From NCBI GenBank assembly GCA_947478865.1, contig CANJXF010000039.1, forward strand, positions 1 through 42,239: 42,239 nucleotides of DNA. The letters run 5' to 3'. The stretch's first letter is position 1, and the number at the start of each line of letters is the position of its first letter. Shown here piece by piece: positions 1-42,239 of the stretch. Made by a program: the position numbers and the translations under genes. A model generated the notes under the pieces. It searched no databases, had not been told where the DNA came from, and was given only the letters and a program-made list of their open reading frames with translations. This stretch comes from Verrucomicrobiales bacterium (lineage in GTDB: Bacteria > Verrucomicrobiota > Verrucomicrobiia > Limisphaerales > CANJXF01).

Positions 1-91
1 CTCGATCGAGTTTTTCCAGGAAATCATTGGTCAATGTCGAAGGCATCAAGCTGTCCAGAAGTCCCAGCTGTGGATTGGTCGTGGTTTGCAT
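1..91 (-). CDS. Partial 5' end of an unidentified gene, possibly a transposase
   Basis: Reading minus from an ATG at 91 there are 30 open codons to the window edge, beginning MQTTTNPQLGLLDSLMPS and ending FLEKLDR. A GAAAGAG purine-rich Shine-Dalgarno sequence abuts the ATG. The start region with a phrase like F-L-E-K-L-D-R resembles the N-terminus of IS5/IS1182-type transposases, but 30 residues are too few to identify a family. The body of the gene lies outside the window. I saw no terminal inverted repeat in the roughly 185 bases before the next gene. Confidence 0.45.
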   Translation of the reverse strand, partial: MQTTTNPQLGLLDSLMPSTLTNDFLEKLDR

Positions 92-277
92 CTCTTTCAG
101 ACTTCTATTCACGCGCTATATTCACGCCGAGTTTTTCAGAGGTCTCAATCTTTGTCTCGAAATGAGAAAGATAACCTTAAAAACCCTAAGATATAACGAT
201 AACTCGTGTCAACAATATCTCCAGCGGATCATGACCTCGATTGCCTTAGAACTAGGCTCAGAACTTGAGAAGTGTGC
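92..277. other. AT-rich intergenic stretch
   Basis: This stretch lies between the left-edge partial gene and the end of the M42 peptidase gene. It is noticeably AT-richer than its surroundings. A plus-strand open frame crosses it, but its translation has no recognisable domain and it extends into the left-edge gene, so I do not call it. It probably holds the promoter of the left-edge minus-strand gene. Confidence 0.4.
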
Positions 278-36259: not shown

Positions 36260-38311
36260 ATGAGTAGCTCGAAAAAAGAATCCGCGTCTGGTCCCGAAGA
36301 GAATGGAAAAAGCGAAGGCTCCGCCGTCGGCTCCAGCGTTTCCACCCGCGTCCATGCCGCGCCGATGAAAGTTGATGGCCCTCTCCATCGCAGAATGGAC
36401 ACCAGCTTTTTGCAATACGCGTCCTACGTCATTCGCGATCGCGCCATTGCCAGTCTCGCGGACGGATTGAAGCCGGTTCAGCGCAGAATTCTGTGGGCCT
36501 TGCACGAGAAGGACGACGGGAAATTCATCAAAGTCGCCAACGTCTCCGGGCATGCGATGCAATATCATCCGCACGGCAACGTATCGATCGACGACGCACT
36601 GGTGGTTCTGACGAACAAACGGTATTTGATCGAGGGACAAGGGAATTACGGCAATATTTATACGGGTGACCCCGCAGCCGCATCGCGTTACATCGAGTGC
36701 CGCCTCACCGATCTGGCGCGTAACGAACTTTTCAATGACGAGATCACCCAGTTCGTCCCGAGTTACGATGGGCGCAACAAGGAACCGGTAACCCTTCCCT
36801 GCAAATTGCCTTTGACCCTGATGCTCGGGAACGAAGGCATCGCCGTTGGTTTGTCGTCGAAGATTCTCCCGCACAATTTCATTGAATTGCTCGAAGCCCA
36901 GATTGCCATTTTGAAGAAGCAATCGTTCAAGTTGCTTCCCGATTTTTTCACTGGCGGATTGATGGATGCACGTGAATACGGTGACGGCAAGGGCAGCATC
37001 AAGGTTCGCGCCAAGATCAAAGTTAGGGACGATTCCACGTTGGTGATTAAAGAAATCCCGCCGACAACCACGACTGATTCCCTCATCAGTTCGATTGAAG
37101 ATGCGGTTCGCAAAGGCAAGCTGAAGGTCAAAACCATCAACGATTTCACCTCCGAAGATGTCGAAATCGAGATCAAAGCGCCCAGTGGCGTCAGTTCGGA
37201 AAAATTACTCGACGCGCTGTATGCCTTCACTGATTGCGAGATCTCCATCACCAGCCGGATCATTATCATTAAGGAGAATCGTCCGGTCGAAATGACGGTT
37301 TCCGAGGTTTTGCGCGAAAACACCGGCCAACTGGTCAGCATCCTCAAGCAGGAATTGGAACTGAAAGAGTCGCAGTTATTGCAGGAACTTCATTTCAAGA
37401 CCTTGGTCCGAATATTCATCGAAAACCGGATTTACAAAAAAATCGAGCAGTCCAAAACCAACGAAGCAGTTCACGAGGCGATTTATGACGGCTTCAAACC
37501 CCATCGCAAAGAAATGTGGCGCGATTTGGTCGATGAGGATGTCCAGTTGTTGCTCGAAGTACGGATCCGCCGCATTTCACTCTTCGACATCAATAAACAC
37601 CGGGAAGAGATGGACCGAGTCCAAGCGCAACTCGACGAAACACGGAAGCACCTCAAGAATGTAACCAAGTTCGCCATCGCCCATTTGGAGGCGTTAATCG
37701 AGAAATACGGTCCGCAATATCCTCGGCTCACCCGCAGCAGCCGCTATGATGAAGTTGATTCCAAGGAAGTTGCCTTCAAAGCCTTCAAAATCGCCTATGA
37801 TCGGGAATCAGGTTATCTCGGCCACAAAGTTTCTGGGGAGGAATACCGAGTTGATTGCACGAAATTCGATAAATTGCTCATCGTTTTTCGCGATGGCCAT
37901 TACAAAGTAATCGAGTTGCCGGAAAAAGTATTCGTCGGGCCGGAACTCGTCTATTGCGCCACGCCGGATCGAGACCAGGTTTTCACATTGTGTTATACCA
38001 ACCGCGATGCGACTTATATCAAGCGCTTCAACTTTGGCGGGATTATCATGAACAAGGAGTATTTTTGCATTCCAGAAAAGTCGAAAATCCTGTTTTTCGC
38101 CCCAAATACCCCGGATCAGCTTTACATCAAATACAAGCCTGCCCCGCACCAGAAAATCCAGCAGCAAACCTGTAATCCGTCTGAGATCGAAGTTAAAGGG
38201 GCTAAAACTCTCGGCCGCCAGATTTCCATTAAAGACGTGGCCTCCATCAACAGCAGACCTCCGCGCAACTGGGATCCGGAAGCCGCGACAACCCGCTTGC
38301 CCTTTTCCTGA
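36260..38311 (+). CDS. parC: DNA topoisomerase IV subunit A
   Basis: 683 residues. DNA-cleaving subunit partnered with ParE. Winged-helix and tower motifs: SFLQYASYVIRDRAIASLADGLKPVQRRILWA and QYHPHGNVSIDDALV. Tyr144 in AAASRYIECRLT is the DNA-linking residue. A long coiled-coil and primary-dimer gate follow, then a reduced C-terminal pinwheel (from about 500). The Ser-rich N-terminal tail of about 35 residues is unlikely to be structural. Length is below typical GyrA (about 850), which supports ParC. The separation from parE by an opposite-strand cassette is unusual. Confidence 0.92.
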   Translation: MSSSKKESASGPEENGKSEGSAVGSSVSTRVHAAPMKVDGPLHRRMDTSFLQYASYVIRDRAIASLADGLKPVQRRILWALHEKDDGKFIKVANVSGHAMQYHPHGNVSIDDALVVLTNKRYLIEGQGNYGNIYTGDPAAASRYIECRLTDLARNELFNDEITQFVPSYDGRNKEPVTLPCKLPLTLMLGNEGIAVGLSSKILPHNFIELLEAQIAILKKQSFKLLPDFFTGGLMDAREYGDGKGSIKVRAKIKVRDDSTLVIKEIPPTTTTDSLISSIEDAVRKGKLKVKTINDFTSEDVEIEIKAPSGVSSEKLLDALYAFTDCEISITSRIIIIKENRPVEMTVSEVLRENTGQLVSILKQELELKESQLLQELHFKTLVRIFIENRIYKKIEQSKTNEAVHEAIYDGFKPHRKEMWRDLVDEDVQLLLEVRIRRISLFDINKHREEMDRVQAQLDETRKHLKNVTKFAIAHLEALIEKYGPQYPRLTRSSRYDEVDSKEVAFKAFKIAYDRESGYLGHKVSGEEYRVDCTKFDKLLIVFRDGHYKVIELPEKVFVGPELVYCATPDRDQVFTLCYTNRDATYIKRFNFGGIIMNKEYFCIPEKSKILFFAPNTPDQLYIKYKPAPHQKIQQQTCNPSEIEVKGAKTLGRQISIKDVASINSRPPRNWDPEAATTRLPFS

Positions 38312-38711
38312 CGTCTCGAAAACGCTCACAGACGAGGGTCGATGGCCTCTGAAAACGCCCGACCCTTACTCAGTTTTGGTTTCCTCCCGCAGCATTGGCT
38401 TGTTTCCGAAAACCTTTGCACAGCGCTTTTTCGACGATTCATATTCTTAAAAGGCGACTCAAATTGCACCGTTTTAGAACACGAAACGCTGATAAAACAT
38501 GACAACGCACGCATAAGAAGGTAGATCATCCCTGAATCTCCCACATACTTTAACGCTATCTAATTTGCGCAATGCAGGTTAATTCAGCCAATTTCCATCA
38601 AATTACCCCCCTGTAACCTCTTCGCAGGACGAACGTCTTTGATAGCGATAGTCCTGTAATTGATTGGGAACGATACCTGCTAAAGGGCACATGGATGAAA
38701 AAGGGAATAAA
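38312..38711. other. 400-base intergenic region before the surface protein
   Basis: AT-richer than the flanking topoisomerase genes, with no convincing open frame on either strand. A short GGGTCG / CGACCC pair (38336-38341 and 38360-38365) could form a hairpin but has no T run. The promoter of the surface protein should lie in the second half, but I cannot point to a firm -35/-10 pair. Confidence 0.5.
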
Positions 38712-41700
38712 ATGCAAAAGTTAACATTAAACACACTAGCTTTGTCGTTTTTGCTATTTGGGCTACCTCAAGTGGGATGGAGCGCCTCCGCTCTCTACTT
38801 TGGTGCAAATGGGACTTCAACGCTTCCGCTGAGCCCCGTTGATTGGACCGGTGGAAATGTTAATGCTCAAAAGGCCCATTTGGTTGAAGGTTATTCTATA
38901 CCATGCCGCGCATGGCTAACTGGGGTAACCGCAGGGAGTAACTCCATCACTATTACGTGGGACACGCAAGTTAAGGGAACAGCAGCAATTGATTATATTA
39001 CATCTTATGATCGCCTTCAGCCACATAATCAATTTGGACCAACCCACACAGCTGCAGAGCAGGTTGATCCTTTGTCAGATTTGTTGGGAACTTTCAGCGC
39101 GCCGAGTAACTTCCCAATTCCAGCTCCATCGACGGCTGGAAGTTCTGTCCCAGGACAGCCCGCTGCAAGCTTCAACTCGCTTCCAGCCAATGAAAGAGTA
39201 ATGACAATTTACAACGGCACAATCACTAGCCTCATTTATACAAACGAGATTAACCTGACTAATAACACTGCTTCGACAACAATCATTGTTCAGTTTATTG
39301 CAACAAACCCAACCGTCGTCATTGCTTTCGGAGCACATCTGGCGTCAACAGTTGACTGGGGCATCGGATCCTCATCTATTGGTGGCTCTCCATATCACAT
39401 GAGTATTAACGGCGGTGCCAATCATCAGCTCTCAACCGATTCGGTCGCAGTTCCTCCTGCTTGCAGCGTTTCAGGAAGCAGCTTAATTTGCCCGGGAACA
39501 ACAAATACGTTCACCTCGGCTACGGATGCGGCATCTGCCACCTTTACTTGGGCGTTGACGAATAATACTGCGGGCGCATTTTTTATCGGTTCCACGAATA
39601 CCAACATCGTTCACATCGCTTCTGGAGCGAGCGGTTCGTACGGTGTGAACGTTTCAATCCTCAATGGATTAGCGTTCAGTTCGTGCGAACAGATTGTCTT
39701 TGTTGGGACCAACACTTCTGCAGGTGCCCTGTCAAACCTCACGGTGTGTCCGGGCCAAAACGCAACCTTCACAACCGTTCCAAGCGGGACCGGGCCATTT
39801 AGCTTTGGGTGGAAGAAAAACGGAACAACCCTCAGTGGCCAAACCAATAGTTCGCTTACGATTTTCGGAACGGCGACCAATGCGGCGACCTACAGCGTGG
39901 TCGTCTCGGGTTGCACATCCGTGACCAATTCGGCGACATTAACGATTGGAACCAATCTGGCCATTTTGACCAGCAGCGTGACGAATCAAACGCGATGCTC
40001 GGGAAGTAGTTTGAGCCTGGCCGTCACGGTTTCAGGAAGTTCGCCCCAATTCATTTGGAAAAAAGATGAAATCATTATCGCGGGACAGACGAACAATTCG
40101 TTAGTGATTCCTGCTGTTGCCACACTCGATGCCGGCACCTACACAGTTGAGGTAAGCGGCTCATGCAATTCACTAACGAATACAGCCGTTGTTTCGGTGG
40201 GTGTCGGCACGCAAATAACTGCTCTAGGTGACACGGCAGTCTGTCCCGGCCAACCGGTGACGTTTAGCACATCAGCTACGGGGACGGCGCCGTTCACCTA
40301 TGTTTGGAAAAAAAATGGCGTCATGATCCCGGGTCAAATCGGCAATTCACTTACGTTCGCCTCGGTAACTTCAACAAACGCCGGTATCTACACAGTTGAG
40401 GTTCAGGGTCAGGGCTCGTGCAACGTTGCTACCAGCAGTGCAACATTGACAGTTAACAATGACGTTTCTCTCGCCAGTCTAACGCCCGTCAAGGTCTGCA
40501 CTGGCACGCCCGCAACGTTCACCGCAAGCCCCTCGGGAAGTGGTCCATTTAATTTCTCTTGGAAGCTCGATGGCTCCTCAACTGGACTAAATGGCTCGGA
40601 GTTAATTGTTACCACCGACAGCCTCGGATCCGGGGAACATCAGATTCAAGTCGTCGTGGCTGGAAGTTGTGGTTCCGCAACGAATCAAACCACTCTGACC
40701 ATCCCCGAGCCCATCACTGTCAGTGGCTTGACTAACGCCTCCATTTGTCAGGGAGGCACCACGAACTTTGCTGTTTCAACGACGGGGAGTGGCCCATTGA
40801 ACTTTGTTTGGACTGTGGATGGCCTTCAAGTTCCACCGAATAGCCCAACTGCAGCCATTGAAACGGCTACGCTTTCTCTTGGCGATCACTCAATTCAGCT
40901 CGTGGTGAGCGGAGATTGCAATATGATCACAAATCAGGCCGTTCTAACGGTAATCCCCTCGCCTTCCTATTTGATCGCAGGGGTAACCAACCAGGTTTGC
41001 CCTAATTCATTTTCGAATATGTATAGCGTTCCCACTGGTGCCGCAATTTATAGCTGGAGCATCTCCGGAAACGGAATGATTGATTCTGTGACAAATGGGA
41101 ACTCGGTTTTTGTGACCGCGCAAGGTTCGGGGACGTTCACGTTGAATTTAGTTACGATAGATACAAACGGATGCTCGAGTTTTTCCCAACAGATGGTCAC
41201 GGTTAATGACAGCCAAGCGCCGACTGTGATCTGCCCAAACTCTCTACTCCTAACCTCCGACGCGGGCCAATGCAGCAAGAGCAATGTCACTTTCTCCGTC
41301 AGCGCGACCGACAACTGCGGCAGCGTAACGGTGGTTTCAACTCCGCCATCCGGTTCCACCTTCCCGGTCGGAACGACTACCGTAACCAATGTCGCCACCG
41401 ATGCTTCCGGCAACTCCAGCAGTTGCACCTTCACCGTCACCATCAACGATTCGCAGGCTCCCGATATTACATGTCCACCAGACGTGTTCGTTTCAGCGAA
41501 CTCCGGCTGCAATGCGACTAACGTAGACCTCGGCACACCGATTACGAGTGACAACTGCACCGTTGCAAGTGTCACGAATGATGCATCAGCGACCACAGCA
41601 CCTTTGCGTGCAAGCCAGAACCTCCGCGCTGCTTCAGTGAAAATGTCACGCGGCTTAGCGACAGTAAGTTGGCCTTCTCAAGCAGGCGAGACTTACCGCC

Positions 41701-42239
41701 TGCTCTATAAGAGCGCTCTGACCGATACAACCTGGACAGCCGCGCCAGATGCTGTCACTGCCACTGGTCAGGAAACGAGCCAAACCAACTTTGTTGGCAA
41801 CGCGCCGCAACGTTTTTATAAAATTCAGTTAATAAACGCCGCAACTGCTACATTTCCTGTGGGAACAAACCTTGTAACTTGGACGGTAACCGACGCAAGC
41901 GGCAATGCCAAAAGTTGCGTGCAGCGCATTGTCGTAAGTGACACAAACTCGCCTTCCATCATTTGTTCATCCAACCTCGTGTTGAGCACCGACGTCGGCC
42001 AATGCAGCAAGAGCAATGTCACTTTCTCCGTCAGCGCGACCGATAACTGCGGCAGCGTAACGGTGGTTTCAACTCCGCCTTTCGGTTCCACCTTCCCGGT
42101 CGGAACCACCACCGTGACCAATGTCGCCACCGATGCTTCCGGCAACTCCAGCAGTTGCACCTTCACCGTCACCATCAACGACACTCAACTCCCGAACATC
42201 GTCTCCTGCCCGACCAACATGAGTCTGACTGCGGACATC
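38712..42239 (+). CDS. Giant secreted Ig/HYR-repeat surface protein (3' end outside window)
   Basis: An unbroken frame of 1176 codons runs from the ATG at 38712 to the window edge. AAGGG sits 6-8 bases upstream, and an in-frame ATG at 38691 is an alternative. A signal peptide (LTLNTLALSFLLFGLPQVGWSA) leads into a beta-rich N-terminal module (about 25-240, ending WGIGSSSIGGSPYHMSIN) known from other bacterial surface proteins. About six Ig-like repeats follow with the motif VCPGQNATFTT...SGxGPFxFxWKKNG...YTVEV, then HYR repeats (SATDNCGSVTVVSTPPxGSTFPVGTTTV, split by variable residues). One HYR unit is interrupted by an inserted 87-residue module (41586-41846). Probable adhesin or matrix protein. 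Base composition and codon use look AT-richer than neighbours. Confidence 0.9.
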   Translation, partial: MQKLTLNTLALSFLLFGLPQVGWSASALYFGANGTSTLPLSPVDWTGGNVNAQKAHLVEGYSIPCRAWLTGVTAGSNSITITWDTQVKGTAAIDYITSYDRLQPHNQFGPTHTAAEQVDPLSDLLGTFSAPSNFPIPAPSTAGSSVPGQPAASFNSLPANERVMTIYNGTITSLIYTNEINLTNNTASTTIIVQFIATNPTVVIAFGAHLASTVDWGIGSSSIGGSPYHMSINGGANHQLSTDSVAVPPACSVSGSSLICPGTTNTFTSATDAASATFTWALTNNTAGAFFIGSTNTNIVHIASGASGSYGVNVSILNGLAFSSCEQIVFVGTNTSAGALSNLTVCPGQNATFTTVPSGTGPFSFGWKKNGTTLSGQTNSSLTIFGTATNAATYSVVVSGCTSVTNSATLTIGTNLAILTSSVTNQTRCSGSSLSLAVTVSGSSPQFIWKKDEIIIAGQTNNSLVIPAVATLDAGTYTVEVSGSCNSLTNTAVVSVGVGTQITALGDTAVCPGQPVTFSTSATGTAPFTYVWKKNGVMIPGQIGNSLTFASVTSTNAGIYTVEVQGQGSCNVATSSATLTVNNDVSLASLTPVKVCTGTPATFTASPSGSGPFNFSWKLDGSSTGLNGSELIVTTDSLGSGEHQIQVVVAGSCGSATNQTTLTIPEPITVSGLTNASICQGGTTNFAVSTTGSGPLNFVWTVDGLQVPPNSPTAAIETATLSLGDHSIQLVVSGDCNMITNQAVLTVIPSPSYLIAGVTNQVCPNSFSNMYSVPTGAAIYSWSISGNGMIDSVTNGNSVFVTAQGSGTFTLNLVTIDTNGCSSFSQQMVTVNDSQAPTVICPNSLLLTSDAGQCSKSNVTFSVSATDNCGSVTVVSTPPSGSTFPVGTTTVTNVATDASGNSSSCTFTVTINDSQAPDITCPPDVFVSANSGCNATNVDLGTPITSDNCTVASVTNDASATTAPLRASQNLRAASVKMSRGLATVSWPSQAGETYRLLYKSALTDTTWTAAPDAVTATGQETSQTNFVGNAPQRFYKIQLINAATATFPVGTNLVTWTVTDASGNAKSCVQRIVVSDTNSPSIICSSNLVLSTDVGQCSKSNVTFSVSATDNCGSVTVVSTPPFGSTFPVGTTTVTNVATDASGNSSSCTFTVTINDTQLPNIVSCPTNMSLTADI
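41265..41449 (+). repeat. 185-bp direct repeat, copy 1
   Basis: Encodes one HYR module of the surface protein. It matches 41997-42181 at all but about six or seven positions (for example GACAAC/GATAAC and CCATCC/CCTTTC), an offset of 732 bases or exactly 244 codons, so the reading frame is kept. Confidence 0.9.
41586..41846 (+). other. Foreign beta-module nested inside a HYR domain
   Basis: The HYR domain reads ...SDNCTVASVTNDA, then about 87 unrelated residues, then ATFPVGTNLVTWTVTDASGNAKSC. The inserted segment contains VSWPSQAGETYRLLYKSALTDTTWTAAPDAV (split by variation) and NAPQRFYKIQLI, which I recognise as the module usually found at the C-terminal ends of verrucomicrobial secreted proteins. 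Boundaries are approximate. Confidence 0.75.
41997..42181 (+). repeat. 185-bp direct repeat, copy 2
   Basis: Second near-identical copy of the HYR-coding unit at 41265-41449. The identity at synonymous sites points to recent duplication or gene conversion within the surface protein. Confidence 0.9.

Follow-up and report, generated by a model that had tools for sequence, protein, structure and literature searches.

Giant repeat proteins are usually taken to acquire domains by end-joining or tandem duplication. Nesting within Ig-like domains is nonetheless already known, as in the pilus adhesins RrgA and GBS104, in which the vWA domain D3 is inserted between the regions forming the Ig-like domains D1-D2 (PMC7893114), and close termini generally favour the insertion of one domain into another (PMC12328240). 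No description of nested domains in HYR units, or of the tail module that concerns us here, was found in the open-access literature that was searched, and this absence is weak evidence. Here we describe a HYR unit that is interrupted by a whole foreign module. The reading that we hold to be very probable is that a giant secreted protein, built of repeats, contains a HYR unit with a nested domain, an FN3-like module that probably arrived by recombination and may be displayed laterally.

Results

The giant-protein gene and its contig

The window, meaning the whole stretch of 42,239 nucleotides that was analysed, is an entire contig of a draft assembly of 114 contigs. An open frame on the forward strand (38664-42239) forms the 5' part of a giant secreted-protein gene and leaves the contig end 387 nt past the insert described below, within HYR repeats. 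The first ATG of this frame is at 38691, and the start is likely to be either this codon or the ATG at 38712 (MQKLTLNTLALSFLLFGLPQVGWSA...), which looks like the start of a signal peptide when read by eye, without a predictor. Pfam matches in the frame are to Ig-like domains and HYR units (PF02494). The gene upstream (36260-38311) reads by eye as a GyrA/ParC-type DNA topoisomerase subunit and is unrelated to the nested HYR unit.

A second contig of the source genome, C95 (L076, G000:C95:1-4000), opens within HYR repeats. The first of these share 94-96% DNA identity with the repeats that end the window (42075-42239), which makes C95 probably the remainder (3' part) of the same giant gene. The C95 product ends with Ig repeats, then a P-proprotein domain, then a degenerate tail module. 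The features of the locus are as follows.

38691..42239, forward strand: giant secreted/surface protein gene, 5' part (sequence; Pfam Ig and HYR stretches)
41208..41447, forward strand: intact HYR unit preceding the host unit (residues 849-928, E 5.5e-25 with a HYR profile built in this work; PF02494)
41448..41585, forward strand: split HYR unit, N-terminal half (DSQAPDITCPP...DNCTVASVTNDA), with three of the four cysteines (HYR profile, alignment, AlphaFold2)
41586..41627, forward strand: insert, N-terminal linker (SATTAPLRASQNLR), of low predicted confidence (pLDDT <50 at composite residues 50-55)
41628..41834, forward strand: insert, folded core, FN3-like, predicted strands A, B, C, C', E and F without G (AlphaFold2, structure alignment, family membership)
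41835..41846, forward strand: insert, C-terminal linker (NAAT) (sequence, AlphaFold2)
41847..41939, forward strand: split HYR unit, C-terminal half (ATFPVGTNLVTWTVTDASGNAKSCVQRIVVS), with the fourth cysteine (PF02494 positions 48-80, 25.6 bits; HYR profile, alignment, AlphaFold2)
41940..42179, forward strand: intact HYR unit following the host unit (HYR profile; DNA 94-96% identical to the repeats at the start of C95)

A HYR unit split in frame by 87 residues

Intact HYR units read ...TSDNCxVASVTNxAPATFPxGxTxVTWTVTD, with VTNxAPATFPxG at the point of interruption. The split unit breaks off past DNCTVASVTNDA (41585) and picks up again at ATFPVGTNLVTWTVTD (41847), and the frame reads across both junctions as ...TSDNCTVASVTNDA / SATTAPLRAS...QRFYKIQLINAAT / ATFPVGTNLVTWTVTDASGN..., such that the insert comprises 87 residues in frame (41586-41846). 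Relative to intact units the resumption is as expected, with at most one residue (P) lost or replaced. The initial annotation had placed an in-frame insert of 87 residues within 41580-41852, in a HYR unit split after VTNDA and resuming at ATFPVGTNLV just as an intact unit would; comparison with the intact units bears this out, minus the one P, and a single open frame passes through both junctions.

An HMM search against HYR had been proposed alongside that reading, and it agrees with it. Our HYR profile matches the N-terminal half over model positions 1-53 (E 4e-15), with the C-terminal half beginning near model position 48, and Pfam HYR matches the C-terminal half by itself (model 48-80, 25.6 bits, the cut-off being 21.7). 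The four HYR cysteines are all kept (C9, C21, C37 and C157 of the composite, that is, the split unit with its insert) and align with those of intact units, and the DNC and VTWTVTDxSGN motifs are preserved.

A second composite in another family of the order

A search of the order with the composite as query returned a match (E 1.9e-39) in an uncultured Verrucomicrobia MAG, G227, from another family of the same order (CAIKLQ010000428.1, G227:C428:361-858). The two composites are 57% identical over 166 columns, and that of G227 is split at the same point, reading VTNNAPAS / module / FGVGTNFVTWTV; its protein also carries an intact sibling HYR unit, DNCAVGSVTNNAPASFPLGTNLVTWTV. By profile search the composite is present in two of 320 genomes of the order, the window genome included, and no further one was found in a 388-genome sample of the phylum; these searches scored the best 9-14 first-look candidates per genome, and weak composites may be missed. 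Read by eye, the G227 protein appears to end as the C95 product does, in the same series of Ig repeats, P-proprotein domain and degenerate tail module. The sequences of the two genomes thus establish the split HYR unit, its open frame, the module family and a second occurrence, which speaks against a chance resemblance.

The second composite bears on the possibility that an assembler joined the end of a C-terminal-module gene to a HYR repeat gene. The assembly is a draft, and the contig stops soon after the insert in HYR repeats, where assemblers fail. An artefact would, however, need two precise in-frame joints restoring exactly one HYR unit, and the 341-base stretch with both junctions occurs once in the genome, the junctions being unique sequence and not repeats. 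Because a separate MAG shows the same nested arrangement in a diverged sequence, and because the junctions are unique, we regard misassembly, which the initial annotation had named among the findings that would overturn its reading, as very unlikely.

The inserted module belongs to a family that usually closes proteins

The insert conforms to the module family pattern TW..Y....YK..L....W...VTATG...QRFYRV. This module is present at E <= 0.001 in 51 of the 58 genomes searched of the order, and 46 of 60 distinct copies end 3-8 residues before the stop codon; the 60 copies were gathered with a profile built in this work on fetched loci and are mostly best matches to the window module, so that the terminal share (77%) is approximate. 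All three other copies found in the source genome lie at the C-terminus. The resemblance of the insert to a module that usually closes secreted proteins, suggested by the initial annotation, therefore holds for the family at large. The window copy departs from the typical C-terminal position and is assigned by sequence; it is internal, as are the G227 copy and 12 others. Of the 14 internal copies, the ones inspected stand either between repeats or beside other modules in a tandem array, and only the window and G227 copies were seen inside another domain. Tail modules in tandem or between other repeats occur in L027 (G088:C12), L029, L030, L032, L033 and L084, so the module is not confined to protein ends.

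The module falls under no family of Pfam or NCBIfam, and sequence comparison with the PDB gave no matching solved structure. A weak FN3-like signal is present, in that Pfam fn3 gives its best E-value (0.0049) in one of 39 module members and the module weakly matches gp130 and neuroglian chains (E 0.2-0.8). Pfam fn3 (PF00041) does not match the window copy, and the whole module family scores below its curated cut-off.

Predicted fold of the composite

AlphaFold2 modelled the composite from an alignment that included 27 intact HYR units and the G227 composite. Mean pLDDT is 86.3, low mainly in the N-terminal linker and at about 90 or higher across most of the two HYR halves, and pTM is 0.58, the relative orientation of the two domains not being fixed by the model. 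In VIA-align, 72-78 residues spanning model positions 2..165 align with single PKD-like domains (Z 8.0-8.3, rmsd 2.0-2.6; rows 1-5). The HYR halves are thus predicted to reassemble into one Ig/PKD-like domain around the insert, and the modelling is consistent with the earlier suggestion that both sides remain foldable.

For the inserted segment (model 53..130) the matches are FN3 domains, those of neuroglian and sDscam, with Z 6.8-7.0. When the module was modelled alone, one of five models was good (79.9) and the others scored 44-55; with the module-alone model, FN3 chains fill most of the match list (Z about 6.2-7.2). Z values near 7 lie in a range where a common beta-sandwich arrangement alone may be shared, and we consequently use FN3-like as a working label. 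Foldseek gave no E-value <0.001.

The insert model has six main strands, with none between residue 129 and the resumption of the HYR unit. In FN3 scaffolds with simple numbering, the aligned part ends at residues 78-82 of 90-96, short of strand G, and terminal members of the module family break off immediately past strand F. The module thus appears, from models and alignments, to have no strand G, and since the seven strands A-G are not all present we call it FN3-like and not FN3. It may resemble FN3 in its predicted fold, and it has a W in strand B, a Y in strand C and a Y in strand F, as FN3 has, besides the weak profile signal; it differs in scoring below any Pfam cut-off, in its predicted want of strand G, and in that most members end after strand F. 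In FN3 domains strand F ends close to the N-terminus, and a module without strand G would for this reason have both termini at one pole.

These models can be set against the view that the segment is an ordinary long loop, or part of a larger HYR subtype, and no separate domain. Two of the few VSANSGC-type units found carry the segment, which is therefore not rare within that small subtype. Against this, dozens of proteins carry the same module by itself, at their ends or between domains; the G227 protein and L111 have intact units, of this subtype or a similar one, that are without it; and in the one good separate model it folds on its own. The initial annotation had proposed a comparison with orthologues, which might have revealed a larger single domain; G227 instead keeps the nested arrangement as two separable domains beside its intact sibling unit. 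We consider the long-loop reading highly improbable and treat the insert as a domain in its own right.

Origin of the insert

A mobile element or a diversity-generating cassette could have delivered the module, which is a compact coding segment inserted in frame with an Ala-Thr pair repeated near both junctions. However, the insert is without terminal inverted repeats or a clear target duplication, its DNA occurs only once in the genome, and one scan of viral contigs gave no viral relative, so that such delivery seems highly improbable. A recent duplication from one of the genome's own C-terminal modules was also considered and rejected, as the insert has no DNA match elsewhere and none of the three is among its closest modules; no donor copy was found in the genome. 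Composition is uninformative as to horizontal acquisition, the GC content of the insert being 0.533 compared with 0.521 in the host halves and 0.515 (sd 0.032) in the gene. The preferred route is in-frame illegitimate recombination, in which the end of another secreted protein gene probably supplied a module-coding segment that was joined into a HYR loop, and this may have happened long enough ago for two families of the order to carry the insertion.

Whether the two composites reflect one insertion or two is a closer question. Independent insertions of the same kind of module into the same permissive HYR loop would fit the linkers, which are wholly different (SATTAPLRASQNLR/NAAT in the window and PASGSLPVAGPDVP/VVGGGGG in G227), and the modules, which at 52% identity are no closer to each other than to some C-terminal copies (50-53%). 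The window host unit is likewise marginally closer to the intact G227 unit (76%) than to the split one (73%), and HYR loops have repeatedly accepted other inserts (see below). On the other side, both composites hold a module of the same family in the same loop to within about three residues, share the HYR subtype VSANSGCxATNV and similar following units, and are the only ones among the 320 genomes. Trees of the modules (63 columns) and of the host units (about 80 columns) do not discriminate between the two readings, and AU tests leave a single clade unrejected (p 0.51 for the modules as sisters, 0.43 for the hosts). The architecture common to the C95 product and the G227 protein also speaks for a single event, if C95 continues the window gene. 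We favour a single inherited insertion and hold two independent ones to be less likely. If the composites are of one origin, then, judged from the sequences, the insertion is old, being present at ~57% identity in another family.

Other nested HYR units

About 778 full HYR units were counted in the fetched loci, and besides those of the window and G227 eight others (about 1%) are interrupted by a foreign stretch between complementary halves; the loci were retrieved by pattern searches for intact HYR motifs, and the rate is indicative. Several splits were delimited by eye from half-unit matches, and jelly-roll-like and alpha/beta-like are by-eye labels except where a Pfam match is quoted.

L078 (G000:C63:19000-24854, source genome), residues 635-932 and 1335-1575: two split HYR units (HYR profile)
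L093 (same region as L091): HYR unit with a nested jelly-roll-like domain (by eye)
L095 (Flavobacteriales): two split HYR units, one with an FBA (F-box associated) insert, residues 539-790, directly after DNC (PF04300, E 2e-35)
L144: HYR unit with a nested jelly-roll-like domain (by eye)
L146 (Pontibacter), residues 962-1262: HYR unit with an alpha/beta-like insert of ~213 residues, glutamine amidotransferase or ThuA-like by eye, without a Pfam match
L089 (Bacteroidetes MAG), residues ~50-280: P-proprotein domain in the first HYR unit after the N-terminus (PF01483, E 5e-11)

The FBA domain is best known from eukaryotes. The L078 inserts are of about 230 residues, after strand C' of a HYR_4C-like unit, and about 135 residues, after the first GxC of the other unit. 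Three insertion places are thus represented. One follows the first GxC, one follows DNC directly, and the third follows strand C' (the window, G227 and one L078 unit). All eight are like the window unit in being split by a whole foreign domain with flanks that complete each other; they differ in what is inserted, and most inserts follow the first GxC or come directly after DNC, ahead of strand C'. Nesting is not peculiar to the tail module, as other HYR units in Bacteroidota and in the source genome carry other domains. The initial suggestion that such insertions may show how giant surface proteins gain internal domains is supported, with the refinement that the insertion is neither fresh nor peculiar to this module.

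Discussion

The arrangement that we propose places the FN3-like module in the loop after HYR strand C' (composite residue 47), where the HYR stalk would fold normally around it and the module would project sideways on flexible Ala/Thr/Ser-rich linkers. Termini at one pole would suit the tail module to insertion into a loop. A straight Ig-like stalk could in this way gain a side domain for binding or for stalk-stalk contacts, and a role of lateral display in adhesion or cross-contacts is suggested by the binding types (FBA, jelly-roll-like) of some of the other nested domains. Nesting in HYR units looks to be a recurrent means by which rod-like surface proteins acquire side branches. A broader proposal, to which we give an even chance, is that HYR is a general carrier domain, in which a few fixed loops (those after GxC, DNC and strand C') repeatedly accept whole foreign binding domains in at least two phyla, the tail module of Verrucomicrobiota being pre-adapted by its want of strand G, and that rods are turned into branched adhesins by this means.

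Both genomes have intact reference units next to the split one, which opens insertion into a domain core to direct testing. Our small survey suggests that HYR loops accept very different domains, and annotation misses such nesting because profiles recognise only halves of the units. Should the tail module truly be without strand G, it would be a natural insertable cassette for understanding and building branched extracellular scaffolds.

Compared with the HYR domain as described (PF02494, an Ig-like hyalin repeat), the window unit agrees in both of its halves, in its cysteines and motifs, and in the intact units that flank it, and differs in being interrupted after model position ~47 by a foreign module of 87 residues. 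The parallel with RrgA and GBS104 is that a foreign domain is nested in, and displayed from, an Ig-like stalk; the domains and the phylum are unrelated, and the insert of the pilus adhesins lies at the pilus tip, whereas that of the protein described here lies within a long series of repeats.
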